The position numbers were made by a program, and so were the translations under genes. Below are positions 26,391-61,500 of a DNA stretch of 64,000 nt, in pieces. The notes beneath the pieces were generated by a model that worked only from the letters and a program-made list of their open reading frames with translations, was not told the DNA's origin and searched no databases. The DNA is from Liolophura sinensis (Eukaryota; Mollusca; Polyplacophora; Chitonida; Chitonidae). Location of the stretch: NCBI RefSeq assembly GCF_032854445.1, contig NC_088300.1, positions 11,005,191 through 11,069,190 on the forward strand. Reading direction: 5' to 3'. Position 1 is the stretch's first letter, and each line of letters starts with the position of its first letter.

Positions 26391-29313
26391 CTATGCTGAC
26401 GGGAACACAATATTGTAGGGAGGCTCGACTTCCGCTTGAGGTCCAAGAGTCACCTGATCCTTACTGGCTCTCTGCCCATATTCTACCCAGGAGCCCTAGG
26501 ATCAGAAATACAAACAATATAACAATGTATGTGTGTGTAATGTTTTACCCAGGAGCCCTAGGATCAGAAATACAAACAATATAACAATGTATGTGTGTGT
26601 AATGTTTTACCCAGGAGCCCTAGGATCAGAAATGCAAACAATATAACAATGTATGTGCGTGTAATGTTCTACCCAGGAGCCCCAGGATCAGAAATACAAA
26701 CAATATAACAATGTATGTGCGTGTAATGTTTTACCCAGGAGATCCCGGATCAGAAATACAAAAAATATAAAAATATCCGTGCGTCCGTAATGTTCTACCC
26801 AAGAGCTGTAGTGTTGGAAATACAAACATTGCAACTGTATCCTTGAGTGTAATGTTCCACCCAGGATGGGAAGGGTTGCAGACACAAACCCCCGAAACTG
26901 AGAAATAAGCACTAAAAAAGTATCCGAGGGTGTTCCCACCTGGTTTCTTAAGACAGAAAAACATATCTAATCATATAATCACCTGTACACATTTATACAT
27001 TTATTGATAAATCAAGTTAAACTTTTTAAAGTTAAACAAATATACATCCGACCCACACTGTTACTTAAAACAATAAAAACTCTCAGATCTTTTAAATCTG
27101 CAATGAAAGTCTATTTATTATGTAGTCCCAACAAAAAAAAAGTTATCTGGCTCCAAAGATGGAATTAAAAGAAGCTCTGTCCCTCTATCGGTTCGGGTTC
27201 GCCATATTGTGAACTTATAACTAGGACCATAGTCCGCCGGCAAAAGTGAAGGCCAATTTCGGGTTCTCCATAACTTCACTAAGTTTCACGTGCTCTAATT
27301 TGAATGTGTAAATACTCACGTAGTATACGGACACTTTAGTGTTCCCACAGAGATATGCTGCCATTGCAACCATGCAGGCGGTGTATCCTACGTAACAGGT
27401 GGTCATCAAAGGTTTAGTAAGGTCTACACTCGCCCACGAGAACACTGTAACACAGAACGCAGGCGGTGTAACCTACGTACTGACAGGTGGTCATCACAGG
27501 TTTAGTGAGGCCAACAACAGCCCATGAGAACACTTTAACACAGAACACAAGAGCTGTACCCTGCGTAATTACAGGTGGTCATCACAGGTTTAGTGAGGTC
27601 TACACCAGTCTATGCAAACACTGTAACGCAAAACACAGGAGCTGTTCCCTGCGTAATTACAAGTGGTCATCACAGATTTAGTGAGGTCTACACCACCCCA
27701 TGAAAACACTGTAACACAGAACACAGGAGCTGTACCCTACATAACACGTGGTCATCACAGGTTTGGTGAGGTCTACACTAGCCCAGGAGAATATTTTAAA
27801 CACAGAACACAGGCGGGGTATACTTCATAACAGGTGGTCATCACAGTTTTAGTGAGGTCAACACTGTACCCTACGTAACGCCCAGGCACACGTCAACATA
27901 GTGTGTGGCATACAGGATTAGCATAGTACGCCACTCAACACAGCTTGCTTGAAGGCTCACGTGGACAAACATTACTGTGTAAATCTAGCATATCATATCC
28001 TCTGAGCTATTCAGTGGTTATGAACTTTGCCTCAATGCAGAACCAGTTCCTGACGGAGAGTTCAACGTTCAAATGGCAAACATGACCGGTTACAGCTATG
28101 AAAAGCATTCTTGCCCAAAACAGGAAAATTTTATTACAATACCAGTCAGCAAGCTACAAACGAATAACTGTAGAAGTTTAGCGTTCCAGGATAGCATAAT
28201 CGGGTGATCTTAGAACAGACTTGATATGGGGATGACTGGTTCCTAGAGTGGAGGTGTACTTACGTTCCCGGAGTTGATTGACAGGTCGGACACTGACTAG
28301 GTCACTTCCGAACATCAAGGGGTAAGGCAGGTTCTTAGCCCCCGGGATTGTCCCTGTTTTGATGTCGGACAACGCGGAAGGATCTAACCCTACTGCTGGC
28401 ATAATCATTTTCAGTACTGCAAAATGAAATGAGAGGAAATCAACAGTGCTGATACAGAATTTTAGGCTTTTTGTTGTTTTTGTTTCTTGACTGGTCATAA
28501 ATAAATAAACTGGATAAATATGTACATCGACCTAATGATCTCACTATGCGACATAAGCCAACATTCGGCCGGTGACAAATTGGCGTGCCAAAAATTCTCA
28601 CAAGCCGTAAAAGATACATGCCAGGTCACCCAGGTTTGCCATTACTACGATATATTGTCCCGTACATCAATATTCCATTATCACTGGTCCCAACATTATT
28701 ATCACTGAAATCGAGATGATGAATTTTTATTTATTCATTCATTTATTTGTTCACTCAGTCATTTATTTTACTGTAAACCAAATTTGTCAAGCTCGTTTTA
28801 TGGCTCCCTAGTACAGAAATAAGTTGGCCAGTTTGATAACGTCTTCGTACCAAAAAAGGCATGAGGTGGTCTGAAGCCTGAAATTGCATTTTCTTAGCGG
28901 TTGCATGTGTTAGGATTTTCCGTTTTTCTACTAGCATTTCTTTTTTCAAATCTGAGGCCTGACTTTGCATTTTCTTAGCGGTTGCATGTGGTAGGATTCT
29001 CTGGTTTTCTACTAGCATTTCTTTTTCCAAATCGTCTCAGATTTTCAACCCTAGCTAAGTGGATAGTTACAAGTAGAGGGCTCCTCTTCTTTGCCCGTAT
29101 AGTTCTCGTGTGGTCGTGTGTCCAAGATCTGCGTATCTCCCTTCGAACGGATTTCCGCTAGTTCGTCGAAAGTAACCATAAGGCTTGGGTCAACCGTTAG
29201 AGAGATGTCCCCTTCCTAGAAGATAACCGTGCAATTGTATTGAGAAGAGAACAATGAAAAGTAGAATTAGGTACCAGGTCTGCATTACTCTAGCCAATAA
29301 CGGATATAATGTT

Positions 29314-29382
<69 letters not shown>

Positions 29383-32300
29383 TGATATTTGAGTTGGTAG
29401 TGCAGGAAGTTAGTGTCACTGATAGCCATAAAATCCGTCTAGACTCATTCCACATCAAACACAAGAAGCCACAAAAATATAATACGGCATAAATCAGTCA
29501 CGGCTGACAACAACCGATGAAAAATAAAACGAAGAAGCATGTAGTAACATAATCATTGAAAGTGGTTAGCGATACAACAGAGCGACATCTATGAGTTGTC
29601 CGCAGATATGCATGCCACAGACCGTAAGCCTGCCCTAAAGGAGAAGAAAACTTAAAAACATGACACAATAGGCTGAAAAGAGCACATTTTTTTCTATCTG
29701 GTGGTGCCTGCTGCATAATTTTGCGACTTTTCCTCGCTATACACGTAAAGCCTGAAAACGGCAAAGCTGGCATAAAGCGCTGAGTTCATCGCGTCCTCCA
29801 TCTTTAACACCGTGTAATTTATACTGGGGGTGTGGAGTCGTTAAAACTGCCGGCTTGTTCGTGTAAACTCCGAACCTACGTCCAACATTCCGGTTTCCCG
29901 ATCGTCAAGTGGAAAACCAACTGTACTGTTCGCTACCTTCTGAGAAGAAGCGTTCTACCGGAAATGTACGAACTGCACTTCGGCGGTTTCCGACGGCAAT
30001 TCTCCTCCTAACACAGAAGACTGCAGGACTTGTTCTTAGGCAAAATGGAGTTGCCCACAGCAGATGTTGGCGCTGACTTTATTTCTAATTTGTCAACTTG
30101 AGGTACACATTAGAATTTTTTATGGCATGCACCTGCGAGGAAATGCATACTCCTTTCAATGGTATTTGATATTTACATTTTCTTCTCCTTTAATCTTCAA
30201 GACCCACAAAGGTTCTTGAAATACAGCAATGATGTGAGAAGAAATGATTTTCGCTCATGTTAAAGTCCTTTAGAATAGTTCTACATAGGCTACATACATG
30301 TAGCATATTGGTCAAGCCCACAAGAAAAATGTGTTTTTGTTTCTTGAGTCAAAAGCCCAAAAATGAAATGGTATCATAATTTTGTGAACAAGTTCACGCA
30401 ACTTGAATAGCTCGAACTGTATGCATACCGCTAAAGACAAATCCCTAATGTGTATGTACCTGAGCGGGCAATTCTTCGGCTGTGACGGGAAATCCTGCGT
30501 CTTGCCATGCCTTCAAGCCTCCGTTTAGAACAGACACCTTCTTGTGACCGAAAGCCTGTAAACAAGTCGGGAAACACTGAAGCACGGAGAGACAACACAA
30601 AAACACAGTGGGAAACACGGAAACACGGAGTGGGAAACAAGGGAAATCAGACTGGGAACCATGGGAACACAGGGTAGGAAACACAGATTTGTACACACGG
30701 AAACAGAGTGGGAAACACGGAAACACAGAGTAAGAAGCAAAGAGTTAGAAACAGAGTGGGAAACAAGAAAACACAGAGTGGGAAACACGGAAAAACTCAG
30801 TGGGAAACAAAGTTGTAAACACGGAAACACAGTGGGAAACACGAGAACAACGAGTGGGTAACACGGACACAGAGAGCGGAAAACAATGAGTTGTGAACAC
30901 GGAGTGCGTAACACAGTGTGTTAAGGAAAGAGTGGGAAACGGGAAAACGAAAGGGTGAAACGCGGAAACACAGAGTGGGGAACAAAAAATGGGGAACAAA
31001 GAGGGGGAAACACGAAAACACACAGTGGGAAGCACGGAAACACAGAGTAGGAAACACGAGAAGACAGTTTATGTCCACTGTTTATGTCCATATTGTTAAC
31101 TATCAAATGGAAAAGGCAGTATAAAGCGTGGGAAGTGGATATATAGGGGAACATTCGTCTTCATTCACGACTGATTGGTAGATGTCATGTCTTGTAACTG
31201 ACAGTTATCTGTTGTTGTTAACTGTTATCCTATTAAATGAAAAGCCTCTCATGTAGTAATCGAAGCATGTGATGTTAGGCCACAGTGTAGCCTACAAATT
31301 GTGCACGGTATAGTCATAACAATTCTGTAAAGAATGGTCATTGCGCTTCTCATCTATTACTCGCTACGTAAGATCTGTGAAGAATGGTCATTGCGCTTCT
31401 CATCTATTACTCTCTGCGTATTATCTGTGAAGAAATGTGATTGCGCTTCTCATCTGTTACTCTCTACGTAAGATCTCTGAAGAAATGTCATTGTGCTTCT
31501 CATCTATTACTCTCTACGTAAGATCTGCGAAGAATGGTCATTGCACTTCTCATATATTACTCTCTACGTAAGATATACCTCATCATGCACATCTGACAGG
31601 GTATAGGTCCCTTAATGATGTGGTAAGTAAATTTCACAGTATTGTCAACGTATTCCTAACTTTGGATATGTTTTAATTATACATGTACATCGTAAAATCA
31701 CGAGGAATATGTTTTTGATTTGTATTTATTATTATGCTTTTACCTTCAGCATCCACCAAAGTCTCGGAGCTGCAAACGGTAAGAGCTTGGCAGTCTCATA
31801 GAGAACCACGTGAGACCCGGCGTTCACTCCCAGGCTCCTCAAGGTCTTCTGGAAGTCTTGTAGGGTGGGAATAGAGGACGGGATGTACGGCATCTGGGCC
31901 GGGCACAATCTCATCAGGTCGATGTACCGAGCGGACGGGATATGACATCTGAAACAGATACGAAAGATGGATTTGAGCCCGAGACCTTCTCGGTGTGACG
32001 AAGAAAAACGCTAACTGATTGAGGCAGCGAGGTCCATCATCTTAGAGGTGTATTAAATCAGTAGACGTTAGGACAGTAAACCTAATGCCTCTTTCGCACT
32101 GTGCGATTCCCAGTTACCACTCGAAAAGGGCAACCACATATGATTTGCTGATTTTGACTAAACATGAATCACAATTCACAATTTATGGAAATATTTACTG
32201 AATTCTGATTCGCCAAATCTGCTACCGTACAGATGGAATGGCTAATCGTCCAGCGGGGAACGGACAAAAACCCCGCGGACATAAGCCCCTCGATCAGTTT

Positions 32301-35176
32301 TAAGTGTATATGGAAAATGACATAAGTTGTTTGCTTGCTTGAAAAAACTTGAAACATTCTCCCTGAAGTGACGTTTCAGATTTCAATACATGTTTGCGGT
32401 CAATAGAATCTCGTCTTACTCGTTCAATCACCATCTATTCTAATCGTTTTTGACGTCACCGGAAAGAGATATATATCTGTCAGCGGTATACAGAATGCTC
32501 GACCTCCATTCCAGGCTTCTCTGAAAACTAAAGAAGTCTACAAGTAAGGTAAACGATTGCTGTATTGCAGCTTTAGTTAGACTTTTTTCCAATTCACAAA
32601 TCTTACATATATATGATTCTAAGAACACAAATCTTAGATATATGTCAATCGTTCCTATCTTGGAGATATAATTCACATGCTATTGCCTAACACCTCTAAA
32701 GAAAACGATTGATTCCACATACTTGTAGCAGTGATGGTTTTAACGTCAGAATCTAAAGAAAAAACAAAATGTGCCTGTTTCGATCTTTCCGAGTGTAGGT
32801 GTTTTTTTATTCTTTTTAAGAGTATTCAAAAATAATGTTTTTCTTGTGAACTATAATAAGATTTGGTTTAAATGTCTAAATAATCAAAGTTTTTTTTTTA
32901 AATAAATCTGCAATGGGGAACACATAAAATTGCATACGATACCTGTAAATGGACTCAAAATGTATAATTCACTACTGTGAATCGTAGTAAGCTATAACCT
33001 GTATACCATGTTGAAATATTTCATCTAGACAAATTAAGTATAGTGGTACTATGTAGAATAAACTTATATTTGCTCGTCGGAAAGCATTCGATAATTATAT
33101 CAGAGACATCAGAGACAGTCATTTTGGCGATATTGTTTTGAAAATGTACGTGTATAACGCTTATGAGAGGAAAGCTTTTGAACCCGAGTGACAGACTAGG
33201 ATACGCTTTGATGACAGATTTTTAGATGGAAATCAAAGTCACACTATATATGAATTCCCGTCAACAAATCTTTGACTTCATGTTTTCTAGAGTGTCGGAT
33301 ATGTTCTGCCGATTAATCAAAACGACGGGTTTTTTGTCCGCCGGGGTTTTTTGTCCGCCGGGCTTCTGTCCACGGGGCTTTTGTCCTAGACTCCCGTCCA
33401 GCAATCGTTAATGTATCCCCACGTAAAACAACTGAAATATCTCAGTGCGACATTTAATTCTGTTCAAGAAAAGTTTTTAAAAGTTAAGGCGCCTTAAATA
33501 TACTGGTTTGTTTGATTTCACGTTGTATTTGGGTTTTAAAAACATGCATTCACTTCTAGTATTTCTTCTTTTTTAATGTAGGCCTACGAGTCATATCAGG
33601 TCATCGATGCCATTCCGTATCTCACATAGGTGATTGCTACTAGCCTGTGTAGGCTGTATCATACCGTACAGCGGCGTAGGAAGCGGGCGCCCAAGGGGGA
33701 CATGCCCCACCCCCCACTTTCAAAAGTGTGTGTGTGGGGGGGGGCATATTTTTTGCCCCCATCCCCCCCCCCCCCCCCCCTTTTCAGGTTCCGGAAATTA
33801 TATATACTTGTAACACAAACAAGACCCTTCGCCGAGTAAAACATCACACTATTTGCAAATATATTTTCTCGGTAAACTAAACATGGTAAACTGCAACCTT
33901 TCCCAGTGCACATTGGTATTAATATAGGGCCTACATGTTTTTTCGGTCTTTCGGCCTACATATTATATGTTTATGAGTTAGCTCCCTTAGATGAGATTCG
34001 TCAGTCGATTGAAATGGAGCCGCCTGACCAAACTTCGTCGAGTTCAACGGTCGATAGATTCCTGCAACGTCGGTTTTGTATTTTATGCATCCATGCAACC
34101 ATGGCTGCAATTGTCATAAGTTTGTGAATTTTGATTATTTCCTCAAAGATTTTGCTTTTCCAGATCACGTGATATAGAGTCAGCAAGTTATATTTGCCTG
34201 TTTTTCCAAACAGATAATATGCCAAAATTACACAGGTTTATGTAGGTTTGCTTGTTTTAACGTTCAGTACACATGCAAAAGTAGCATATATTAATATGTA
34301 CAATTCTCCCATGGAAGGGCAAATCATCTACAGTGTAATTTGACAAAAAAGTCGGCTCATTTGTCTCCAAACACAATCTTTTTTCTGATTTAGTGACTAT
34401 GTTTTATTGCGATGACGTTGCAGTTCCATTCAGCCCAAAAAGCAGAATAATTAATATATTTGTACAATATATGCGCTCATCGGTGTTTAGTTATTTATTT
34501 CATTATGGTTTATCGTCATTCCAAGATCTTTTCACTTAGGACGGGTTGCAAGATTCATCAGTGAAGGAAAAATAAGTAACCGTTGTAACCACCGACTTTG
34601 GCGCGTTACTGACATTCCCCTAAATCAGATGCACGCCTTTCTTCTAAGCCAAAGATCTTATCAAAAAGTGTATGTATACATTTGAATGACATTGATTTCA
34701 ATCGAAATCAAGTCAGCGCGAATAGGCCGGCAAGTTTACCACCAAGGCCAGAAAAAAAATGGATGTTTCTTTCCCCCCGATCTCTCCTCCATGTGAGTTA
34801 AACATACCTCAACAATTGAGCTAACGTCTATTTCAATTTTTTGAGGCAGGCTTAAATAGTCAGTAACACTTCAGTTGACATATCTAAGATACGGCAAACC
34901 GTCTCTAAGGCGATATAGCTCCTTCAGAGCTTCCGGGGCCTTGGCGGCCCCTGGACCCACGCCTTTTTTGCTGGGACTCTTGGCCCCCCACTTTTAAATT
35001 GCTTCCTACGCCCCTGTCATATCTGTCAGGTACATACATCTTGTAGTCCTCCATCCCGGGCCGTTCTCTGTGAATGTCGTGTCCAGGACCCGGATGTCCT
35101 GGTTCTTGTTGGTTAGTTGTTCGTGAAGCCATTGGGCTGTGACCAGCGCTGGACAACACTCGTCCCCGGAGCTCAT
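26391..35176 (-). CDS. sulfurtransferase, thiosulfate / 3-mercaptopyruvate type (two rhodanese domains)
   Basis: Transfers sulfane sulfur from thiosulfate or 3-mercaptopyruvate to an acceptor through a cysteine persulfide. Seven exons on the minus strand: 35034-35176, 31744-31948, 30460-30555, 29071-29215, 28264-28416, 27320-27444, 26391-26495. All phases agree and give 323 residues. Domain 1 shows LVTAQWLHEQL, IRVLDTTF, HIPSARYID, APRLWWMLKAFGH and VSVLNGGLKAW; domain 2 shows MVTFDELAEIRS, QILDTRPHENYTG, TGTIPGAKNLPYP, LTKPLMTTCYVGYTAC and YYGSWVEYG. The nucleophile is Cys264 in the loop CYVGYT; vertebrate MPST has CGSGVT and TST CRKGVT, so substrate choice is undecided. The start is chosen because a TGA lies in frame nine bases upstream. 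No mitochondrial presequence is evident. The weakest join is exon 1 to 2. Confidence 0.9.
26485..26900 (-). repeat. ~62-bp minisatellite copying the exon 7 splice junction of the sulfurtransferase
   Basis: About six units. On the minus strand each has 'tttgtatttctgatcctag' followed by 'ggctcctgggta'. That is the 3' splice site and the first dozen coding bases (Gly-Ser-Trp-Val) of exon 7 at 26495. The unit nearest the exon is the real junction; units get more diverged away from it. The right part also carries tgtgtgtaatgttt as spacer. Confidence 0.92.
27350..27885 (-). repeat. ~87-bp minisatellite copying sulfurtransferase exon 6 with its catalytic cysteine
   Basis: The true exon (27320-27444) is the first unit; about five more follow upstream in the intron. 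Minus-strand translation of the extra units keeps segments such as GLTKPVMTTC, VDLTKPVMTTCYVGYSSC, VDLTKSVMTTCNYAG and VDLTKTVMTTCYEVYPAC. Each unit also repeats the acceptor-like 'gttctgtgttacag' that precedes the exon. Some units have a 3-bp insertion after the cysteine and one has a stop, so they are not all coding. Confidence 0.93.
28868..29034. repeat. two-unit ~89-bp tandem repeat in sulfurtransferase intron 4
   Basis: 'tgcattttcttagcggttgc' and 'ttctactagcatttcttttt' each occur twice at this spacing. The antisense ORF 28755-29030 (EKEMLVENQ, KKEMLVEKR) is the repeat translated. Confidence 0.9.
29315..29378. repeat. TA microsatellite in sulfurtransferase intron 3
   Basis: More than 28 uninterrupted TA dinucleotides. 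Length is likely to vary between individuals and to be error-prone in sequencing. Confidence 0.97.
30575..31065. repeat. ~22-bp minisatellite in sulfurtransferase intron 2
   Basis: About 20 units of 'gggaaacacggaaacacaga' plus 'gt'. The array begins within 20 bases of the exon 3 acceptor at 30556. Several overlapping long ORFs here come from the repeat. Confidence 0.93.
31320..31575. repeat. ~50-bp minisatellite in sulfurtransferase intron 2
   Basis: Five copies of 'gaagaatggtcattgcgctt' followed by 'ctcatctattactctctacg' and 'taagatctgt'. Confidence 0.93.
31965..32035 (-). mobile_element. tRNA-like SINE head
   Basis: The minus strand reads A-box-like 'cctcaatcagttagcg' and B-box-like 'ggtctcgggctcaaatcc' at tRNA-like spacing. 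It cannot be a working tRNA because the folded arms are not evident. It lies just upstream of sulfurtransferase exon 2. Confidence 0.45.
32040..34890. other. sulfurtransferase intron 1, no gene seen
   Basis: Non-coding. It holds a short tandem 'ttttttgtccgccgggg' at 33328-33385, and at about 33664-33785 a repeat block starting 'ggcgtaggaagc' with G and C runs. No supported ORF. Confidence 0.5.
34895..35020 (-). repeat. dispersed repeat next to the exon 1 donor
   Basis: Minus strand starts 'ggggcgtaggaagc', then 'aaaagtggggggcc' and 'ggccccggaagctctgaagg'. The opening word recurs at 33668 in the opposite orientation. The copy starts about 13 bases downstream of the inferred exon 1 donor (35033), so an insertion nearly reached the splice site. 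The ORF 34905-35186 joins exon 1 to this repeat out of frame and is not the protein. Confidence 0.5.
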
Positions 35177-37975: not shown

Positions 37976-37979
37976 GGCA

Positions 37980-38530
37980 CACTTAGATGGGTCCCATGTG
38001 GGCATGATCTGGGCATCTGGGTATGGGTTTGCCCAGATATATCCCATGTGGGGCCCACATGGGTAGAATAAGGGAAATTCAGTTATTTTCCCATTAAGAT
38101 CCCATGTGGGTCCCTCATGGGTAACATGTGGGTAAAAAGGAATCCAGGCAGAGACTTAGGGAAGAGTAAATATTTAGATTTCATTTGGAGTCGTCTGGGC
38201 TTGGGATGCCCATCAGGGTTCCATATACATCTGCCCATCTGGGCCTCATACACAAATACCCATCTGGGACCCATATTCAAAAACCCATCTGAGATCTATA
38301 TCTGAATGCCCATATGGCCGACATATGGAAATATCCAATCATGCATATAATGCTCCCCAGCTTATACACAAGGTTTCATGAAGGATCCCATATTCGACAT
38401 GTATTAGTATGGATCAGAGTTAATGGGCCCCACATACCTCCCGTATGGGACCCAGATGTAAATATTCATGGGCCCCATCTGGGATGGGGCCCATATCATA
38501 TGGGAACCATGTGGGCCCCATGTTCGAATG
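37980..38530. repeat. degenerate palindromic CCCATnTGGG repeat
   Basis: About 20 spaced copies of words such as 'cccatgtgggccc', 'cccatctgggacccatat' and 'gcccatatggccgacatatgg'. Each is close to its own reverse complement, so both strands look alike. ORFs here are the repeat. Confidence 0.85.
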
Positions 38531-38754
38531 CTATCTGGGAAGGTGAACCATCAAGAGAGTCTGTTGGTTCTTTTAAAATCAGCGAAGGTGGATGTGTTTC
38601 TTTCACAACCTTCAAAAAAAAAAAAAAACATAGGCCTAACACGAGTTATTTACAGCTAGCAGATCATCAAAATGCCATCTAGTGAATGAAGTAGCTTGAT
38701 AAACATTACCTGTACTCCACGACAACTTCTGTACAGTCGTATTTGTATCAATGG

Positions 38755-39560: not shown

Positions 39561-40165
39561 ACAGATGTTAATTATCGGAAATTAAAGCAACTCAGTGAAT
39601 CTGTATGTTATGAATCTGGAGAATGCATTTGATGTAATGAAGCAGTGATCCATTAAAGTGAACACCAAAACAATTAAAGACAAGAAATTCTCTCAGTTAA
39701 ATCTCCATGATAACAGTAAAGAGTAGTAAAAAAGAGAAAAGAATGAAGAAGTATCCTAGTCCAGTCTTCATGGTGACGTTTTAATTTAAAAATCCCTCTA
39801 GAGCCGATGACTCATGTAAGGGTAATGTTATGATACATCCAGTAAAAGGAAGGCACCATAAAATATTTTTTTGGGTGGGTGGGAGGGGGGGTGTTGAGGT
39901 AAAAATTTAAAAATAGTTTTCTCAGAGTGTAGGTCGTGATCAGATTCGTTGAAGGAGCCAGGGTTACTGTTGCGTTTAACTCCTCTACCAGAACTTCAGT
40001 AATGCCAGTAGTTCTTTCAGCCTAAAAGAATATCACCAAGAGCTTTGTCTTCTGAACAATTACATATTTACCCAGAGAGTCAGCAAGTAAGAGAATAGGC
40101 TGCATGGGTAGCATTGCTATTTATATTGTGGATTGCAGACAGGACTTCCTGCCTTGACAACCCAA
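39561..40165. other. non-coding spacer, no gene seen
   Basis: No motif-bearing ORF. A short G run (gggtgggtgggagggggg) lies near 39875-39890. Confidence 0.45.
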
Positions 40166-46560: not shown

Positions 46561-49500
46561 CTATATGTACAGGGTACCATGGTGACCATTCCCATCTCCC
46601 AAGTCCAACTCCAAATCCTGCTCCTGCAAACTAATCTGGTTGATGGAGGCAGTTGCCATGGCAATGTCTGGCATCATCTCATTCAGAATACTGTCACTAC
46701 AGGCACTCGCTTCATTCTACAACAGAAAACATAGAAAAGGTGATTACTGGCAGACAGGTAACATACATGTAGCACAGGTGATTACTGGCAAGCAGGTAAA
46801 TAGCATAGGTGATTACTGGTAGACAGGCAACATAGCACAGGTGACTGTTGACAGACAGGCAAAAAACCACAGGTGATTACTGGCAGACAGGTAACATAGC
46901 ACAGGTGATTACTGGCAGATATGTAACATAGCATACGTGACTACTGACAAACAGGCAACATTGCACAGATAGACAGCTTCAGTCTACAAAAGTAACAGCA
47001 CAGGTGATTACTGGTAGACAGGTAACATAGCACTGGTGATTACTGGCAGACAGGTAACATAGCACAGGTGATTAGTGACAGACAGCTTGAGTTTAGAACA
47101 TGTAACACAGCACAGGTGATTGTTGGCAGACAGCTTCAGTCTACAACGGTAACACAGCACAGGTGATTACTGGCAGGCAGGTAACATAGCACTGATAATT
47201 ACTGGCTCACACACAACATAGCACAGGTGATTACTGGCAGACACCTTAAGATTACAACAGGTAACATAGTACAGCTGATTAAATTATCACTTTTCAGTAA
47301 TTCCTTCAACACCCATGACTGGTAACTAACTGCATCAACAGCATTATCTTGTCAACAAGGGCAATGTGATGATTACGGTTAGGCCACATCAAAGATTTTA
47401 ATATAATAAATCTTGATACCAGGCTGGCTAGGCACAAAGCAATGCTTGGCTCAGTGTCAGCTGTATGTTACTTGTGAGGAGGTAATTACAATATCCCATA
47501 TCTAACATAAATGCACATGCATAATGACAGACAATGTCAAGTCAAAACTGTGAAAGTCTACAGCCACGTTAGTTTCGTGAACTACAAATATGTGAATCTA
47601 AATGTTAAATGTGGCATACCCAAATTTAATAGAAAGCCAAGTTGGTGGAGATTTATTTTATTACTATTCTGCATAGATCAACTAAGCCAGCCTAGCTTCA
47701 ACCACGCTACCTTTCTCATAGACACGACATGCTGACTGCTGAGATGAAAACAATTACTGTGCAGGAAGCAATGGTACAGAGCTGAGGTCTGTTTACTGTT
47801 GCAGATTCTAACATTGGGGTCAAACTCAACTTGCTCATTTTCTCTAATTTTGTGTTAATAATTTTTGTCTGTGTGATAGTCTCATAAATCAAAAAGCATC
47901 AACAATGATGACTGATACAAAATATGAATCAAGTAGATCTTAATGATGACAGAATAAAACAGATGGTGACTTGAGACTTACCTCAACTGGGCTGTAGGAG
48001 TGGGTGGGTGAGATAGGGGTGGAGGAACTATGTTTGACAGGTGATGCTAGACGGCGATGACTCCGTGGGGTGGCAGTTCTGGGATAGTGACGCTCCAGAT
48101 GTACAAACTGCAAGTCCTCTGGGTAGTAAAACTGACCATTCTGCAGAACTTCCACCGTGCTGTCCGGGAGACCAAACTCACGCACGATTCGCAACTGTAG
48201 CTGCAAAGTTATGGCCCTTTTGTCGAGGTAGGGAGTAGAGTAGGCCTTGAGCACCAGGCTACTCTGCTGTAACTCATGTTCTCTCTGGGTCATTAGCAGA
48301 AGCGTGTTTCTGTCTGGAACTGAACAGAAGCATCACTTCAGCATGAGTAAACTGGTACAGAAACTCAACTAGGGTCTGAGATGGTGAAGTACACGGAAAA
48401 CAGGTTTAAAACAAGCAACAACAAATACACATACTCCAGTGTTAGTTATCTAGGAAGGAAGGATTGAAACAGATGCATACATGTATCGTCACAAACAGTT
48501 ATTTCCAATGTGCTTGGCCACTAAGTCATGGGATACGGCATGTCAGAGAAACCAGAAATGTTAGGTTATGTTACTCTTAGCACACATAGCAAAAAGGCAA
48601 CAGAGTGTTCGAATGACGACAGAGGTAACAGGTGCGTTCTTGGGTTATAAACTGGTAACATGGCCATATTTTTGATTTTCTTGAAGATTTTCTTTATTTC
48701 AAACTGCGATATCTTGGTTAGGTAACATCACAAAAATTAAAACTCATGGTTTCAAAACTTTATGTGGGATACTTTACTGATACATATATACATTTGCCTG
48801 CATTGTCTTTTTTAACGTTAATTTTCCAGCAGGACTAACCAACCTGTCCTGAGGCACCAATCAGAAGAATTAAAGGTCACTCTCACTATTATTCTTAATC
48901 AATACTAAAAAAAAAAAGACAAAAAAGAACGGCCACTTTTTTACATTTCCTTAGAACCACCGTTTAACAGATCTGTACTGTACAGACATGACATCAGTAC
49001 GTCGTAACCTGTACTTACCTGGTATTGTCCCAGCGATGATATCTACAGTGGCAGTAGAGGTGCTGATATAGTTCCCCGGTGGGTATGGAGACAAGGGGCA
49101 CTGTCGTTCATCCACCATGTACAGCGTATCTGGGATGGAAGACATGTGGATTGTGCGGATACGAGATGGCTCACTCTCCTGACCCTGGGACAATTGTTCC
49201 TCTAACAATGCCTACAATCACAACAGGGAGAATGGCAACCAAACTCTTTACAGCATCACCAAACTTACTCTGGCCCAGCCATAAAACAGATCTCTCTTTC
49301 TTTTCCCTGTACCAAATACCAACACACCCACTTCTCCCATAAGTGGAATAAATTGCTTCACAATCTTAAAGACTGGTTGTCCGTACCTGCGATTAAAATA
49401 ATCCTCACATTAGCCTATAATTTGTACATTTGTTCTATTCTACTGACAGATGCACACAAATTATAACAGCAAGATAAATGTCATGATTAATGTCCAGGCA

Positions 49501-52500
49501 TTAATCTCGATATCAGTACTTGAGAAATAACGCACCTTCATCTCCTCATAGTAGGGCATGAAGAGTCGAGGTTTCACATACATGCCGCTGTTTTTGCCGC
49601 GGATCCAGGCACAGCCCTGCAGACCGTGGGTCTCATCCGCCATCATGTGGGAGGGTGGCGTGCTGACCAGTCCCCGCTTGATGGCATTACTCAGCACATC
49701 ATTGTTAGCCGGGATCACATGGTCCATCCTCACCAGAGGCAGCAAGTCCACTAGCACATCCCGCAGCTCTACATCATTCAGGTCACGTTTCTTCACACCC
49801 TTCTTACTGACGCTGTGAGCAGTATGACTTAAGAGGTTTGGCTCTACAACGCAGAAACATCACTGATTTAGAACCACCTGAAGGGTAATACTGATCATCA
49901 TCTATACATGTACTTGAACATGATGCTACAACATCTATTTGAGCCTTTTTGGTCTTTCCTTTTTTCCCCCCCCCATCTTAAACAACTGGAAGTTTAGGCC
50001 ACGCCTCTAAACTCCTTACAGTGGAGGCATTGTCCACATTATCTGCAGATACCATTTGTTATATGTACCTATAGTGCTAGGAAGTATCCCCTAGCATATC
50101 CGAGGTGTTGAGTGTGCCAGCGCGGCGCAATGACCCAGTTGCCTCTTACTGATGGTGACTTTGTCTCTGGACATATGTGGGAAAGTTTGCCAACAACCAG
50201 CGGATAGTCATGGATTTCCCCAGTCTCTGTCCGGTTTCCTCCCATCGTAGTGCTGACCACCATCGTATAAGTGAAATATCCATGAGTATGGTGTATAACA
50301 CAATCAAATAAATTAAATACATAAATAAAGTATCCTCAGACTGAATCTGGAGGAAACAGCAGGTCATTTTTCTTGCGAATTAATCAGAAATAATTTGTCT
50401 TGCGCAATTAATAAGAAATATTTTTTCTTCAAATCAATTTACGTACCCACAAATAAAATTTAACAGCTATGAATTATCCCGTTGTACCCTTTAACATCCA
50501 TGAGAGTAGATGACAAATGGCAGGTGTGCTGTGTAATGTGTAATCTAGTTAACATGAGTTGGTAATATTTATTGTTGCACTCTTCCTTTACTATGTTTCA
50601 CAAATACATGTACTGTACTTATTCAACAGCTGATTTCTCAACACAAAGTGGAAAAACTGAGCTGACACTGTATACAGCTATACCAGTGCACTTATTCAAT
50701 CTTTGACATATAGAAAATGACAAGTTGGAAATTCTGAATCTCACTGGCAATATTCTGAAATCATATTGGCTGGATGGATATGTATTGAACAGTTTGAACA
50801 AATGAATCTCAGCACAATGGCTCTTGAACACTGTTATCAGGAGTTCCTTCATCCCGTGTATACCCTTATTGTACTTTTAATCATAGGCAAATGTCCAGTA
50901 CAATGTACAGTGTATGCTGCAAGTGTAACCAGGCAAGTCTAGGAGAGAGCACCTGGTACATGTGTACATGCTAAGGTGTGGAGATTAACACTGATATAAA
51001 CCTGTGAATGTTTCTGGACATTCTGGCACCATCATTCTGTACATCTGGCATCATCAAAGGTAGAGTTAGTCTAAACTTTACAGCCCTGGGGTCTGACACT
51101 GACCTTCTCACAGTGGTTATCATCCACATGCATACAGAGGCAGAGCAAGGGTCTACACACCACAGCCGTATCTAGTAAGTCATGTTGTCTTCTGTAGTAT
51201 GATTAGAACCCAGTGGGAATACCACACACGTCATTTTTAATACTGGTCATATTTTATGGCTTTTGGGGGAGGGGGGCAACACTATTGCTAAATGCAATAG
51301 TTATTCACTTGCAAACAAAAAAAAAAACATTCTGTTAAAAAAAGAAAAGAAAAAAATACTCAAATACTGTTAGAAAACCTATAACTAACCCTGTTCCAAA
51401 GTAACAATCCCTTTCCTAAAACATGTAAATCACTTCCCAAAATGGTAACAAACCATCACAAATCACAAAAGCCATCCCAAAACGAATATCAAACCATATC
51501 CTAAATTCTATCTTAACTCCAACTACATACTAAGTTTCAAATCCTGTAACAAACCCTCTCCCAACTCCCATCACAAACCCTGTCCCAATCCCATAACAAC
51601 CCTATATAAAACCCTATAACAAACCCTGTCCCAAATCCTGTAACAAACCCTCTCCCAACTCCCATCACAAACCCTGTCCCAATCCCATAACAACCCTGTA
51701 TAAAACCCTATAACAAACCCTGTCCCAAATCCTGTAACAAACCCTCTCCCAACTCCCATCACAAACCCTGTCCCAATCCCATAACAACCCTGTATAAAAC
51801 CCTATAACAAACCCTGTCCCAAATCCTGTAACAAACCCTCTCCCAACTCCCATCACAAACCCTGTCCCAATCCCATAACAACCCTGTATAAAACCCTTTA
51901 ACAAACCCTGTCCCAAATCCTGTAACAAACCATCACAAATATTTGTAACAAACCCTGTCACAAACACTGTAAGAAACCATCCCAATCCTGTCACAAACCC
52001 TACCCCAAATAACAATCAAAATTTTTTAATAAACCATCACAAATCCTGTAACAAAACTGTCACGCATCAAGCAGCATGATGTGCAGAGTGTTGCTCCTTA
52101 CCTCGCTCTTCCATCCTTCGGATCAGCTGGTGCTCTCCCCATTTTAAAACAGCTGTCAGCACATCAATCTCTCCCGCCTGTGAATGAAAAACATACAGTA
52201 TTAACTCAACGACTGCCACTTCGTCTGGCAAACAAACACATGTACAGTACAAACTGTTAGCACTCCAGGTAGTATAAAACTTACACACACAGGTAAACAA
52301 ACATTAACACATTCTACAGTCTTCAGGTAACTGTTCTCACACTGTAAATGTCTGCACTGTGAGATGGAAATGTACATGTAGCATATTCAGATGAATGTCA
52401 CCAAATGACAGAGAGGAAATGTCAGACAGGCAGCTTCTGTACCAATGCACCTATGAGGAACATCAATATGGATTCCCCGGTACAAGAATGATTAGGGTTT

Positions 52501-55500
52501 TATGCCACTTCAGCAATATTGCAGCCATGTTGTGAAGATGAGAGAAAAGAGGGCGACCATCAACAGACACTAATGAGGAGGTCTTTGAGAAATGCAATGG
52601 ATTGGTATGATGATGATGATTACATGTAGGACAGGAAGTGGTGATGAAATGTATGAGGCTCTATCCACACATACTGAGCAAAAAAAGAAACTTCACGAGT
52701 ATTACTTTATGTTCCAAACATATCCATGCCCATGTAGAACATAGTGTGGTGCTTGTGGATAAATCTAGTTTGTGGACATAGTGAGCGTACACTAAAACAG
52801 GATTATACATTAAGGTGTACTTGGTGCACCCCCTTGTCAAATGTAGCATAATGGGGTCTCTCGCATTCACAACAGCAAAGGAACATTGTCTCCTTGGCTG
52901 CCTTACACCCGTAAACAGAGCATTAGGCAACCTGTGCCACTGCTGTACCAACAAGGCACCCAGCTCTTAAACATTCTGGGGTTGATGTCTCAAGACGTGA
53001 GGTCTTCTTCCAAGAGCATGTTCTTCTTCCCATACATGTTCAATGGGATTGAGGTGAGGTCTCGTGTCAACAACACTTTCAAAATCAACATTTGTAAGGC
53101 TTGGCATGAGAATTGTTTGTTGCCACGTGTGAACTCAAGGAATAATGGATAACTCAAACTGACAAAGTTTAGAGTACCTTGTTCTCTTCTTTCTTTTTTC
53201 CATAGTTAGTGATATAGGTAGTCAGATACCTCAGTAATTCAGTGACAGTTCATATATTTTAAACAAAACGGTTGAGTGATTACGCTAATTTTTAATTTAC
53301 AAAGTGAAAAATTGAAAATGAAAATGAAAATTAGATCTGCAAGAAACACCAAACACCAACACTTATTTGATGAAATGCTATTAATACTAAACATATATAT
53401 GTATATGGAAAAAATATTTTCCACCGCTTCCCAGGTCAAAAGTACACGATATCGAAAAAGCGTTTCCCAGCAATTCTGAAATTCTCATGCCTGATATGGC
53501 TTTAATTTCCTAACATCCATCACTAAATCCACACCGCTGTGAGATCATATACTACAAGAAATAACATAAAATTCATTTATCAAGGTTCTACCATACTAAA
53601 ACATGTAAACAATTTCAAAAATGGCAATGTCAGTAACAGGGATTATAGTTAATTCGATACCAGTTTAGGTAACTGGGGATGACCTCCATTAAAACATGTT
53701 GAACTCTGCCCAATATCCAGCATGTCACTGGTTTTTTAATAATTATGACGTCACCCGAGGCAATAGGTTCTTGCTATCTAAACCGAGCTTATGAACTTCA
53801 ACAATGTGAATTAGAAAAGGAGTTCTCACTTAATTTTCCTAACAATAATAAGACTTCCAAAATATTCATGTGTAGAGGTGGTGTTGTTACGTGGCACTGA
53901 CTAAAGGCAATTTCGGAAGCGAATATGACTGATTTTACAGACAGCTGGATATAGGCGAGTCTCTAAAAGAAACAGACTATAAAAGTACATGCTGTATGCA
54001 TCCAGCCTGGTTCACCACAACTGTAACGGTCAGATGTGTCAGGTTAGAAATGGCCATTATGGTATTCGCCAATATTAACTACATGTACCTTGTGCTACCC
54101 TTTTCCAACATAATTCATTTCTCCAAATGTGAAGTTTCTTTTCCTGTTCGGTATACACATACACGTAGGTGTACATGTAGCTGCCAGGAGTGCTAGCAGG
54201 TGCTCTAGTTGTGTACTACAGGTATTATAGTAGTGCAGTGCCGCACATGTGGTCTTCATACCACATCGGAAGCTGTCTTACCAGCACAAACACTAGCTGT
54301 AGTGTGGTGGAGAGTGAGGGGACTTCAGATATGCCGTCTGTGAATGATACTGGGTGTTCCAGTTGTAGTACTACACATGTTCAGGGAGTATGAGATGTCG
54401 GAATGGGGGGTGGGACAAGCAATGAGAGTGACCTTAAAGGATGCATGAAACGCGTTGGTTTTATATCTTAATGTGCAGATAATGATGTGCAATAACATAT
54501 GACAGTATAAACAAATTTTTCAACTTTTGCTCTGGGGGGTAAAAATGGCTTCGAAGTACAGTTTTCTTATGGCCCCAGCGGAAAGTCTAGAAATTAAGTA
54601 GCTTGCAGCGGTGACATCAAGGATGATTCCTCTTTAAAAACAGAACTAGGGAACAAACTGAATGGGTCTGGCTGAACGGAGGGGCAGGAGTGTGCTGAAC
54701 AGACCGAATGGAGGTGGATGTAGGGGTGCGGAGGGGGCGCTAAGCTGGCCCGAAGAAGCCATACAGTATCTGTGTACTTGTCACACAGAATTCTGAGCAA
54801 GATCAATGATGATGTAATTTCCGAAAAAATCTGATTGTTGACGGAAAAATATGCATAATAGAGGGGTATTTAACAGGTATAAAAATACTCCAAAAATGAA
54901 ATGATTTTACCAAAAATTCTGGAGCATAGAAACATAATCTTTGTTTTAGAGTTCCTTTTCATGTATTCTTTAAGTCTACTCCGACTGGCCAACTTGCCCA
55001 ATGTCTCACTCTCTACTAACATATTAAACACATCTCCCTTGATAATTCACGTCTACATGTACATGTACACTATCATTCTGTTAACTCTAAACCCTCAACA
55101 CCACAAACCTGCTACTGGGTCGGCAGTTAGGCAATGTCTCTGCCCTAGTCATACAGTAGGTGAGGTCAGGACAAATGTGATTACTACATCTCCTGAACAT
55201 GGTGCATGGTATAGATACACAGCTGTCTTGTACATATACATGTACATGTACCAAGTCTCTTCAAACATCTCTGCCAGGTGACTGCCTTTACAAAGTTTAA
55301 GACATCACTTTCCCATCTACTGATGATCATTCACTTCATTACTTACATGTATATGTACATGTATCTGTCTCTCATTCATGCACTGGCAGGCAGTCACGTT
55401 TCTGGGTGGGGTTAATCACAGAGCATGGCAAATATCCGGATGTACATGTGAGTATTTATTTACTTATCATTGATGTTTTACACCATACTCACAAATATTT

Positions 55501-58500
55501 CACTCTGAAGTCTGTGTGGCCACCTAATCACTAAGACCAGAGAAGATCCAGCAAGATTCAGTCAGATAATGTCTGAACTGAAGTTGACCAGACTACACCC
55601 TTTTAAATCTGACTTTCTCTGAGCTGAGGCACACATATATGTACAGGTAGGCCAGGCTAGATGAAGCACTCACCATACAAATGTACAGGTACATGTTTGT
55701 CATGTTAATTTCATGCCACCTTCCTGATTTACCTTTAGTTTGCCCTGACTCCATGTAAATGTATCTACCCCCATAACCCCTCAACTTGCTCCTGCATGCC
55801 ACAAACATTCATGTCAAACAAGAATGCACGTAAATCACATGTCTTTACACATTCAAGTATTCATTCATAATGAAACCCAACTATTGATCTGATCTGATGT
55901 GATTATGTTCAACAGATTTATACTCAACAATTTCTCAGGTATATGTACATGTATATAATATAATAAAAAGTTATGTGCTTTGAGGTAACGGTCATTGACC
56001 CCTGACAAGTTATTGGCAAACTTTCCCGCATGTGACATACATGTACATCATACTGGTGGAATAAGGTATATGTAGGCACCATGTGATCTTACCTGGAGAA
56101 AGTCTGAGCGTAATGCCTGTATTAAGTACTCTTTGCTGAGGTCGAAGAGTATCGGTGAGTGAGCGATCTGCAGGAACTCCTCACGCAGGAAGTGGATAGC
56201 CTGGCGGTGCACCCACTTGGAGCCATGAGCCTCCGAACTCCAGCCCAGTATGGACGTCAGGTTTTCCAGATTAATACTGTCAGAGATAATATCTTCACAA
56301 CCTACAACATGTACACAATCCTTAATACTGTCAGATATAATATCTTCACAATCTAAAACATACACACACACACACACACACGCACAATCCCTATGCTGTC
56401 AGATATAATATCCTCACAACCTAAAACACACACACAATCCCAATGCTGTCAGATATAATATCTTTACAATCTAAAACACACACACACACGCACACACACA
56501 AATGCACAATCCCAATGCTGTCATATATAATATCCTCACAACCCAAAACACACACACAAAATCCCAATGCTGTCAGATGTAATATCTTCACAATCTAAAA
56601 CACACACACACAAACACCCACACACAATCCCAATACTGTCAGATATAATATCTTCACAATCTACAACACACACACAATCCCAATGCTGTCAGATATAATA
56701 TCTTCACAATCTAAAACACACACACACACACAAAACACAATGCTGTTAGATGTAATATCTTCACAATCTAAAACACACACACACACAATCCCAATGCTGT
56801 CAGATATAATATCTTCACAATCTAAAACACACACACACACAATCCCTATGCTGTCAGATGTAATATCTTCACAATCTAAAAACACACACACACACAATCC
56901 CAATGCTGTCAGATATAATATCTTCACAATCTAAAACACACACACACACAATCCCAAAGCTGTCAGATGTAATATCTTCACAATCTAAAACACACACACA
57001 CACAATCACAATGCTGTCAGATATAATGTCTTCATGATCTAAAATGCACACACACACACACAATCCCAATGCTGCCAGATATAATATCTTCACAATCTAA
57101 AATGCACACACACACACACAATCACAATGCTGTTAGATGTAATATCTTCACAATCTAAATCACACACACAATCCCAATGCTGTCAGATATAATATCTTCA
57201 CAATCTAAATCACACACACAATCCCAATGCTATCAGATATAATATCTTCACATTCTAAATCACACACACAGTCTCAATGCTGTCAGATATAATATCTTCA
57301 CAATCTAAAATACACACACACAATCACAATGCTGTCAGATATAATATCTTCACATTCTAAATCACACACACAATCTCAATGCTGTCAGATATAATATCTT
57401 CACAATCTAAAATGCACACACACACACACAATCCCAATGCTGTCAGATATAATATCTTCACAATCTAAAATGCACACACAATCTCAATGCTGTCAGATAT
57501 AATACCTTCACTACCTAAAATGCACAAACACACTCACAATCCCAATGCTGTCAGATATAATATCTTCACAATCTAAAATGCACACACACACACACACACA
57601 ATCCCAATGCTGTCAGATATAATATCCTCACATTCTAAATCACACACACAATCTCAATGCTGTCAGATATAATATCTTCACAATCTAAAACACACACACA
57701 CACAATCCCTATGCTGTCAGATGTAATATCTTCACAATCTAAAAACACACACACACAATCCCAATGCTGTCAGATATAATATCTTCACAATCTAAAACAC
57801 ACACACACACAATCCCAAAGCTGTCAGATGTAATATCTTCACAATCTAAAACACACACACACACAATCACAATGCTGTCAGATATAATGTCTTCATGATC
57901 TAAAATGCACACACACACACACAATCCCAATGCTGCCAGATATAATATCTTCACAATCTAAAATGCACACACACACACACAATCACAATGCTGTTAGATG
58001 TAATATCTTCACAATCTAAATCACACACACAATCCCAATGCTGTCAGATATAATATCTTCACAATCTAAATCACACACACAATCCCAATGCTATCAGATA
58101 TAATATCTTCACATTCTAAATCACACACACAGTCTCAATGCTGTCAGATATAATATCTTCACAATCTAAAATACACACACACACACACAATCACAATGCT
58201 GTCAGATATAATATCTTCACATTCTAAATCACACACACAATCTCAATGCTGTCAGATATAATATCTTCACAATCTAAAATGCACACACACACACACAATC
58301 CCAATGCTGTCAGATATAATATCTTCACAATCTAAAATGCACATACAATCTCAATGCTGTCAGATATAATACCTTCACTACCTAAAATGCACAAACACAC
58401 TCACAATCCCAATGCTGTCAGATATAATATCTTCACAATCTAAAATGCACACACACACACACACACAATCCCAATGCTGTCAGATATAATATCCTCACAT

Positions 58501-61500
58501 TCTAAATCACACACACAATCTCAATGCTGTCAGATATAATATCTTCACAATCTAAAACACACACACACACAATCCCTATGCTGTCAGATGTAATATCTTC
58601 ACAATCTAAAAACACACACACACACAATCCCAATGCTGTCAGATATAATATCTTCACAATCTAAAACACACACACACACAATCCCAAAGCTGTCAGATGT
58701 AATATCTTCACAATCTAAAACACACACACACACAATCACAATGCTGTCAGATATAATGTCTTCATGATCTAAAATGCACACACACACACACAATCCCAAT
58801 GCTGCCAGATATAATATCTTCACAATCTAAAATGCACACACACACACACAATCACAATGCTGTTAGATGTAATATCTTCACAATCTAAAACACACACACA
58901 ATCCCAATGCTGTCAGATATAATATCTTCACAATCTAAATCACACACACAATCCCAATGCTATCAGATATAATATCTTCACATTCTAAATCACACACACA
59001 ATCTCAATGCTGTCAGATATAATATCTTCACAATCTAAAATGCACACACACACACACAATCCCAATGCTGTCAGATATAATATCTTCACATTCTAAATCA
59101 CACACACAATCTCAATGCTGTCAGATATAATATCTTCACAATCTAAAATGCACACACACACACACAATCCCAATGCTGTCAGATATAATATCTTCACAAT
59201 CTAAAATGCACACACAATCTCAATGCTGTCAGATATAATACCTTCACTACCTAAAATGCACAAACACACTCACAATCCCAATGCTGTCAGATATAATATC
59301 TTCACAATCTAAAATGCACACACACACACACAATCCCAATGCTGTCAGATATAATATCCTCACATTCTAAATCACACACACAATCTCAATGCTGTCAGAT
59401 ATAATATCTTCACAATCTAAAATGCACAAACACACTCACAATCCCAATGCTGTCAGATATAATATCTTCACATTCTAAATCACACACACAATCCCAATGC
59501 TGTCAGATATAATATCTTCACAATCTAAAATGCACACACACACACACAATCCCAATGCTGTCAGATATAATATCTTCACATTCTAAAACACACACACAAT
59601 CTCAATGCTGTCAGATATAATACCTTCACAACCTAAAACGCACAAACACACATAATCCCCAATACAATAATATATTTTTATGGCAGTACAGTGATCCTCG
59701 CAATTTCAGCACAGGAGTACTGGCTTATATCATACATGTAGGAGCACTGGCTACTCCGAGAAAGCCATTTATCAAGAACAATATACAAGTAAGGATCGTC
59801 AGTGTCCTTGTGTTCATCCTTACACTTTAATTTCATTTATTTCACTAAAACATAAAATTAACAGGGTTAATGTGTGTACAATACACTGTGCATTTAAATT
59901 AAAATGTTTAAATTATGTTAAATTAAATGTAAATTAAGTTGCAGTGAAATATTTGGCAGGACTAAAACCCTAATTGGCTTGCATTACCCCATAAACTGAT
60001 ACTATTTTTATATTATTTATCAAGGAGATCAGTAAAGAGAATTCCCCTTGAACATGAAAAGGTGAAGGTAAAACTAAAATCATCCACATATTAACCACAA
60101 GTTTAAGAGGTATAGGAGGAAATATAACAAGTACAGTGTATAACACGTTTTTGATCATGGATATTTCTATAGTTGACACAGTGATGTGTAATATTTTCTT
60201 TCCAGGCATAGATGTATTAGGTGCAGGTACAAACTATACCTGGAGCACTGATGTAGGTATTATGAACTCACATGTGCCATTTAACAACATTTCACTTCAA
60301 CTAAATTTGAACCAAATAACATTTTGTAGGTTTTGCACTTTCAAACTGATTGACCAGCTGTTAATGAATCCACTGAAATGTGATGTATACAAATTTTCAA
60401 TTGGCCCTAAACATGCATGTAGTTACCTACAGTGCATGTAGTAACTTATGTTTTCCTACTTCTAAGAATATATCTTACCTATATATATAAAACACATGAA
60501 TGCAAAACTTCTCTAGTGACGTTACACTGGTGTCTTAAAAGCAGGCCAAAACAATATGAATAAAAATCTGAGTTGCTTTCCTGAATTGTAAAGAAACTGC
60601 TGGGTATTAAAACTGATATACACAAATACCTAGAGGTGGAGGCAGAGTGATATGTATAGGAAGAGAGGCTTACCTTGAGACAAAACAGGAAAGTCCAGAA
60701 ACTGACCGATCTGGTAAATCTCCATGGCTTCATCAGCATGAGTCATATGGCCTTTACCGGCTACCATAGCTTGCACTTCACTTAAGCTGCACATACTGGT
60801 GCTGCCACGCACAATGCAGCTGAGGTCTATGGAGTCCAAGTAGACAGCATGCAACAGAACACGTGCATACTGCCGTGGAATGACGGACTCGTCTAACACT
60901 ATACGCGTGGGAGCCTGCAACGTCCGTTCTGTGATCTCCTCTCCCGACCTGGCCCTTCGCAGGAGCAAGTTCCTGAAGAAAGGGGAGCGCGCAGCCAGCA
61001 CGGCCTTGTGGCAGCACAGCTCCTGTTTGGTGGAGTGGAAGGAGCCAGCCATGTCACACTGACTATCATGGAGGTCACAGTCTGAGGTAAACACCAACAC
61101 TGCATCACAGTAGTCCCCAGTCTCTAACAGAGTCCTCAAGTCCTGCTCCAGTGGGCTGGGCATGCCAAACTCGTCCACCAGTCTGGACAGCACTTCCACT
61201 TGAGCCAGTCGTTGTACCGTCGGTACAGAGATCGTCGGTGTACAGATAGCGCAAAAGTGCTGCAAACATGGCAACGTCCACACCTGGCGTTTTCACTTTG
61301 ATTGGAACCTGTGCCCCGTATTCGGGATACTTAGCTAAGATTTCTCTGAAGAATGGGCAGCGCACGGAGAGAAGGGCACGATGTGAGGGGAAGCAGGCCC
61401 CATGGTAGATCAGGTCCACATCTGTACAGTACTTGTAGTCAAACAGCGTTGACAGGTCCCTCCTGAGGCTGCGGGCTGGAGGCCGGGCCAGGTTGGCCGC

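Follow-up and report, generated by a model that had tools for sequence, protein, structure and literature searches.

Tandem arrays whose repeat units copy an exon edge together with its splice site recur in genes of the mollusc Liolophura sinensis, at acceptors and donors alike, and are real features of a kind already named "mirages" in another phylum, in amphioxus (excerpts of PMC3087553 and PMC3902484). Here we extend them to a new lineage and give them a frequency: in gene stretches chosen blind to repeats, junction arrays were found at 10 of 267 modelled junctions (3.7%; 95% interval 1.8-6.8%, computed for 10/266), and their placement is largely explicable as near-random in a minisatellite-rich genome. 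The stretch that we analysed in detail, called the window hereafter, is a 64-kb piece of contig NC_088300.1 (C6:11005191-11069190, in an assembly of 609 Mb and 632 contigs), selected on account of its acceptor arrays and hence not itself a repeat-blind sample. An earlier, sequence-only reading of the window had described arrays at four acceptors and had taken the pattern for an unnamed phenomenon, which, as the amphioxus reports show, it is not.

Two minus-strand genes occupy the part of the window concerned. One encodes a thiosulfate/mercaptopyruvate sulfurtransferase (Pfam Rhodanese, 1.7e-13; bovine rhodanese 1boh, 3.2e-39); the joined protein of the other carries a BACK domain (Pfam, 9.1e-08), matched no solved structure at E 0.1, and is one that we take to be BTBD7. 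The exon edges named by the sequence-only reading are supported, as open frames run on through the joined sulfurtransferase exons 5-7 and BTBD7 exons 2-7, and the alignment to 1boh is gap-free over both sulfurtransferase junctions (exons 6 and 7). At BTBD7 exon 1 (minus strand, window 61215-61292), two overlapping open reading frames in different frames, 61105-61830 and 60630-61292, appear to encode successive parts of the BTB region; the frame break would seem to be either an assembly indel or a true frameshift.

Tandem Repeats Finder (TRF) returned 79 repeat rows for the window, and all four arrays are present where they had been claimed, each at an acceptor (Table 1). Sulfurtransferase exon 7 begins GGCTCCTGGGTA, and the adjoining 62-bp unit has the end TGATCCTAG-GGCTCCTGGGTA; the exon-nearest copies are identical at 61/63 and 56/59 positions and the far-end copy at 46/58, with the AG kept in two of five junction-spanning copies. 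Exon 6 of the same gene begins TGTTCTCGTGGGCGAG following ttctgtgttacag, and its 88-bp unit comprises, besides the junction, 50 or more coding bases; the AG is kept in three of four junction-spanning copies, and two copies of this array were matched also in the protein search. At BTBD7 exon 2, which begins GTTGTGAAGATATTATC after ttgtag, the ~50-bp unit carries TTTAG-ATTGTGAAGATATTATATCTGACAG and retains the AG in 35 of 36 located junction-spanning copies. With a longer intronic query part, the array at BTBD7 exon 7 was found to hold the junction with ~8 coding bases in two of eight located units, both with an intact AG; the unit, ttgtag-ACTGAAGC, compares with ttgtag-AATGAAGC, and seven of the first eight coding bases match (P ~4e-4 in fixed register). 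The junction is copied clearly at three of the four acceptors named by the sequence-only reading and weakly at the fourth (BTBD7 exon 7), with a coding overlap, given there as 9-90 bases, of ~8 (BTBD7 exon 7), 12 (sulfurtransferase exon 7), 31 (BTBD7 exon 2) and at least 50 (sulfurtransferase exon 6).

Table 1. Exons and tandem arrays of the window (positions count from the first base of the window; / marks a junction)
Feature	Position	Strand	Remarks
Sulfurtransferase exon 7 (last coding)	26391..26495	-	Starts GGCTCCTGGGTAGAA (GSWVEY); open frame with exon 6; gap-free 1boh alignment
Minisatellite, 62-bp unit x5.5	26484..26828	-	Intron end, acceptor AG and 12 coding bases of sulfurtransferase exon 7; TRF
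Sulfurtransferase exon 6	27320..27444	-	Acceptor ttctgtgttacag/TGTTCTCG; frame joins; alignment continues through junction (..LRELF/SWASVDLTKPL..)
Minisatellite, 88-bp unit x5.4	27393..27864	-	Chiefly coding start of sulfurtransferase exon 6 with its acceptor; TRF
BTBD7 exon 2	56093..56301	-	Exons 2-7 in single frame; BACK on joined protein
Minisatellite, ~50-bp unit x58	56271..59652	-	Acceptor and ~30 coding bases of BTBD7 exon 2, with CA/TG run; TRF
BTBD7 exon 7 (last coding)	46561..46716	-	Frame open up to stop codon
Minisatellite, 32-bp / 159-bp higher-order units	46728..47280	-	Stops 11 bp before BTBD7 exon 7; TRF
Array	30569..30876	-	Stops 13 bp before acceptor of sulfurtransferase exon 4 (30460-30555); TRF
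94-bp higher-order array	51538..52010	-	91 bp downstream of BTBD7 exon 3 donor (52102); TRF

Self-copy scores in the flanking intron were 41 for sulfurtransferase exon 6, 34 for exon 7 and 39 for BTBD7 exon 2, and exceeded every shuffle, whether 10 were made per junction (maximum 20 over all junctions) or 50 (maxima 15, 14 and 22). The score of BTBD7 exon 7, 16, ties the best of its own 50 shuffles, and this is the weaker case; four of the 11 window acceptors are affected if it is included, three of them clearly. The remaining 17 window junctions (seven acceptors and 10 donors) score 9-15 and have no junction array, and no exon-edge copy was found in the arrays beside sulfurtransferase exon 4 (junction score 11) or BTBD7 exon 3 (junction score 10). 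Two side observations bear on the age of repeats in BTBD7: blocks of ~850 bp recur almost unchanged, by eye, within the exon 2 array (window 56841-58650), which is recent higher-order amplification, and the 94-bp higher-order unit is repeated 4.2 times at 99% identity in window 51538-51931, which is very recent amplification.

The frequency given above comes from 30 gene stretches, 283,600 bases in all, picked by protein family before any look at repeats: nine chaperonin, eight adaptin, four tRNA-synthetase, three Sec1 and six myosin regions, fetched via exon matches, with three intron-bridging Sec1 matches included in the count. Isolated or single-exon matches of PF00118, PF01602, PF00995 and PF00133 were skipped; of the 81 PF00063 matches, six clusters were used and the majority skipped as well. 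With this choice of dense exon clusters, long introns filled with repeats may be under-represented. Splice sites were modelled near the edges of family matches by splice-site score and frame rule, so that all junctions are predicted ones. The query for each junction comprised 20 intronic and at most 40 exonic bases and was run against as much as 4 kb of the intron flanking that junction, and a junction array was counted at a score of at least 20 with copies including at least nine coding bases. The copy finder cuts greedily, and the copy counts given below therefore refer to located copies, not to all units.

Thirteen of the 267 junctions scored at least 20, the top score among shuffles being 20 (10 shuffles per junction), and the 10 that were counted score 29-60. 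These lie in eight of the 30 stretches and divide evenly between the two kinds of junction: five of 133 acceptors (AP_g exons 3 and 4, SEC_b exon 1, MYO_f exon 2 and MYO_d exon 2) and five of 134 donors (CCT_a exon 7, CCT_e exons 2 and 3, AP_c exon 2 and MYO_a exon 3). A recurrent process that leaves decoy splice sites, as postulated by the sequence-only reading, thus extends beyond the window, but its supposed specificity for 3' splice sites is not supported, and an acceptor-only origin was rejected on these counts. The other three junctions were retained in the denominator and not counted as mirages. At the CCT_e exon 1 acceptor, the true site, at 549, scores 21 with five coding bases and the array merely abuts it, and the MYO_a exon 1 donor and exon 2 acceptor (scores 35 and 37) reflect a duplicated exon pair instead. 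Also uncounted were junctions scoring 15-19, such as the donors of RS_c exon 1, CCT_f exon 1, MYO_e exon 4, MYO_d exon 2 and SEC_c exon 1. As a side observation, a myosin heavy-chain exon is tandemly duplicated in stretch L036 (C1:26641900-26650500), where matches at 296-400 and 1392-1487 cover family positions 118-152 and 121-152; these are likely to be mutually exclusive exons.

Acceptors are affected more often in the window, which was selected for them, than in the sample (Fisher, 0.015 for 3/11 and 0.002 for 4/11), and junction arrays may cluster by gene: the CCT_e gene (L007, C8:53403700-53413000), 36% of whose stretch is occupied by repeats, has two donor mirages, one array abutting an acceptor and another 13 bp past a donor. 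Base periods in the 13 clear cases of window and sample are 31-109 bp, 12 of them taken from TRF and that of AP_g exon 4 from the spacing of its copies (75, 92 and 88). Only two periods (60 and 66) are divisible by three, and therefore there is no sign of frame-preserving use, although the period modulo three says little because copy spacings vary within arrays.

The copied splice sites are on the whole not purged. Canonical decoys are present in 87 of the 92 located junction-spanning copies of the sample and in 42 of 47 in the window. At MYO_d exon 2, 41 copies span the junction gctgtgtttgtag-GTTTGAGCG and 40 have a canonical acceptor; the corresponding counts are 14/14 at AP_g exon 3, 10/11 for the donors of CCT_e exon 3, 6/6 at CCT_a exon 7, 5/5 in SEC_b, 4/5 at CCT_e exon 2, 3/3 in MYO_a, 2/2 in both MYO_f and AP_c, and 1/3 at AP_g exon 4. 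Across nine arrays (weighted sum), splice dinucleotides are retained in 114 of 124 copies compared with ~74% for other dinucleotides, retention being higher in seven arrays, equal in one and lower in one, in a comparison where copies within an array are non-independent and BTBD7 supplies 61 of the 124. Decoy sites often score as high as the authentic site; at CCT_e exon 3 all 10 canonical copies score the same 5.2, and therefore strength alone cannot discriminate there. Copies are 74-100% identical to the exon edge, and identity drops with distance from the exon in CCT_a (rho -0.87, P 0.02) and SEC_b (rho -0.87, P 0.05), with no such gradient in the other five of the seven arrays that have enough copies, a set without sulfurtransferase exon 7 and three myosin arrays.

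We then asked how far chance accounts for the position of the arrays. In the sample, 93 TRF arrays cover 13.8% of the bases. They were placed randomly, either gene-wide or within their own inter-exon interval, with entry into exons limited to about one unit, and both nulls were run for two ways of defining unit length, each with two cut-offs on array score. Nine arrays at junctions were observed (nine and not 10 because AP_g exon 4 is not listed by TRF), against 3.2-4.7 expected gene-wide (P 0.004-0.043, four nulls) and 5.1-6.5 expected intron-wise (P 0.030-0.168, four nulls). By distance under the gene-wide null, nine arrays overlap an exon edge by at least six bases against 4.1 expected, four end within 15 bp of one against 1.9, two lie at 16-50 bp against 3.3, and nine at 51-150 bp against 8.5. 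The excess at exon edges is thus modest at most and sharply local, and we do not take it as established because the sample was extended twice, each time after the earlier batches had been inspected, so that the P values cannot be read as if the design had been fixed beforehand; the first interim sample had given seven arrays, one of them later dropped, against 3.7 or 5.5 expected (P 0.06 or 0.25). For the window itself, random placement of its arrays (13, or the eight scoring at least 150) gave 0.9-1.3 expected overlaps against three observed (P 0.04-0.14 in eight variants), which is suggestive but not overwhelming evidence for the sequence-only claim that chance placement is unlikely. Its proposal that arrays are seeded at junctions is weakly supported by the 30 stretches (1.4-2.8 times expectation, P 0.004-0.17), and strong junction seeding was rejected as an explanation, its outcome varying with the null chosen.

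The account that we consider probable is that these arrays are mirage minisatellites founded almost blindly in gene bodies, those that straddle an edge being tolerated. Minisatellites would arise densely across gene bodies, first through tandem duplication and then through slippage or unequal exchange, and exon borders would have little influence on their position. A duplication that founds an array entirely within an exon would alter the protein and be removed, whereas one that crosses an edge would leave the exon-proximal exon and splice site intact, its surplus copies becoming intron and being tolerated at acceptors and donors alike; the array could afterwards expand and contract as an ordinary minisatellite. 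The exon-proximal site would presumably be chosen by pairing with the other end of the exon, that is, by exon definition, which is established knowledge. Arrays that captured an edge would accordingly persist, the exon still being defined by its proximal site. The arrays, the intact exon, the largely intact decoys, the occurrence on both sides and a near-random placement are observed; the duplication mechanism and the neutrality of the copies are inferred. Several points weigh against this account. The choice of splice site is likewise deduced, from exon definition and from the reverse-transcription polymerase chain reaction (RT-PCR) on amphioxus mirages (excerpt of PMC3087553). Most decoys have been lost at sulfurtransferase exon 7 (2/5 intact) and AP_g exon 4 (1/3). 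All window cases are acceptors, none of the 10 window donors being affected (best score 12). As to placement, the arrays that overlap an exon edge or come to within 15 bp of one number 13 of 93, where ~6 would be expected, while the range of 16-150 bp shows no excess, and with base periods and arrays scoring at least 150 P falls to 0.004 gene-wide and 0.03 intron-wise.

A rival account is that some process favours the founding of tandem duplications at splice junctions, such as repair or replication trouble at transcribed edges or AG/GT microhomology, an explanation that we regard as rather unlikely. It agrees with the roughly twofold excess of arrays at exon edges and its limitation to 15 bp, with the P values of the four gene-wide nulls, with the second interim sample when pooled with the window (nine against 3.7-6.5 expected, P 0.010-0.163) and with the clustering in the window and in the CCT_e gene, where two donors are overlapped and one acceptor abutted, but the four intron-wise nulls (P 0.03-0.17) and the second interim sample by itself (six against 2.8-5.4 expected, P 0.055-0.47) argue against it. 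That the exon edge has shifted instead, an older intronic array having lent its last unit to the exon so that the coding part is repeat-derived, would also predict that the exon start resembles a repeat unit, and could apply to short coding overlaps such as those of MYO_d exon 2 (nine bases) and BTBD7 exon 7 (eight bases). This we hold to be very unlikely, as the repeated coding parts lie mostly inside conserved domains: rhodanese is gap-free through both sulfurtransferase junctions, and the family match extends well into the repeated part in eight of 10 sampled cases, the others being MYO_a exon 3 and MYO_d exon 2, where it does so by two and five bases only.

Arrays might also be remnants of intron birth through tandem duplication of exon sequence, for which the globin intron-gain model proposed in PMC3087553 (as excerpted) offers a precedent. 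A sulfurtransferase paralogue (C1:35975702-35977771) reads through both array-bearing intron positions of the window gene, and the two introns are thus either gains in the window gene or losses in the paralogue. Loss in the paralogue accounts for this equally, however, and only two introns are involved; moreover, the likeness between the donor and acceptor ends of the introns before sulfurtransferase exons 6 and 7 (score 10, reached by 8% of 500 shuffles, and score 9, reached by 26%, respectively) is not beyond chance, although an old copy could have decayed. Intron birth therefore appears scarcely probable as the source of the arrays. The paralogue was considered as a clean control, since TRF finds no repeats in the 3,101 bases of its stretch (L035, C1:35975200-35978300). 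It does not give the timing of the arrays, because both introns are absent there. Finally, long arrays are a classical assembly problem, sample junctions are predicted only, and one modelled acceptor (CCT_e exon 1) was initially misplaced; yet the units are diverged, arrays of 2-58 copies stand on different contigs, the window frames join and the models are based on family matches, which leaves next to no probability for an assembly artefact or false exon calls.

Two observations outside these genes may be recorded. A 1285-amino-acid open frame on the minus strand of the window (9200-13057), very rich in N/Q/P/G and with an apparent signal peptide near its start, could encode a secreted matrix protein. 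Elsewhere in the assembly, contig C99, 108,685 bp long, carries between 8348 and 102844 seven cytochrome oxidase I matches ~15.5 kb apart, six of equal score and one shorter, and probably consists of concatenated copies of the mitochondrial genome; C632 has a further match. The mitochondrial genes, read by eye and translated by table 5, stand in the order ND3-ND2-COI-COII-ATP6, with ATP8 presumed between the last two, which agrees with the ancestral arrangement of molluscs and differs from that of amphioxus.

A broader statement, which we offer as doubtful, is that with about one in 27 junctions bearing a mirage array and a roughly twofold excess at edges, a lineage-wide, edge-favouring duplication process draws coding sequence into the turnover of repeats, the spliceosome disregarding rows of near-identical decoys. 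If this were true, and if conserved genes are typical, there would be thousands of mirage junctions genome-wide. The amphioxus mirages, as excerpted, are single-gene observations, and their presence at a few per cent of the junctions sampled in so distant a lineage suggests that minisatellite-rich genomes produce them generally. Such arrays would offer a natural series of near-identical competing splice sites for tests of exon-proximal choice, and their role as a source of intron gain or of shifted exon edges can be tested; they should also hamper the annotation of exons and isoforms in genomes of this kind.

Among open-licence papers judged by title and start of abstract, none was recognised that describes border-spanning arrays outside amphioxus, which is weak evidence of absence; an earthworm metallothionein paper, in the part available, has intronic minisatellites and exon-4 duplications and no border-spanning units. 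Intron gain by tandem duplication of AGGT (Rogers 1989 as cited in PMC3087553; PMC4974935) likewise involves tandem copying of splice-like words within a gene, but creates an intron inside an exon, whereas here many copies stand in an existing intron beside one of its ends, and in the two sulfurtransferase introns compared the ends are not alike. In mutually exclusive or tandem exons, exon sequence is also copied within the gene, but as whole exons with both splice sites (cf. MYO_a exons 1 and 2). The closest counterparts are the amphioxus mirages, defined as tandem repeats over exon-intron borders in Adh3 and the globins BflGb6 and BflGb9 (PMC3087553), to which PGBD5 and troponin C were added (PMC3902484). 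Their units are reported to measure 10-72 and 150-160 bp, and they are described as unstable in length between haplotypes or somatic cells and as homogenised within the cluster except for the edge units (PMC3087553, PMC3902484); RT-PCR showed normal splicing (PMC3087553). RT-PCR and haplotype variation are amphioxus data, whereas the present arrays are known from the sequence of one assembly, and amphioxus supplies gene-by-gene reports from a cephalochordate where the mollusc supplies a sampled frequency, 10/267, and a placement null. Both share, as far as the excerpts go, minisatellite-sized units that lie over the border and take in the splice site with some of the exon, occurrence at 5' as well as 3' borders, retention of AG or GT in many copies, and an intact flanking exon.

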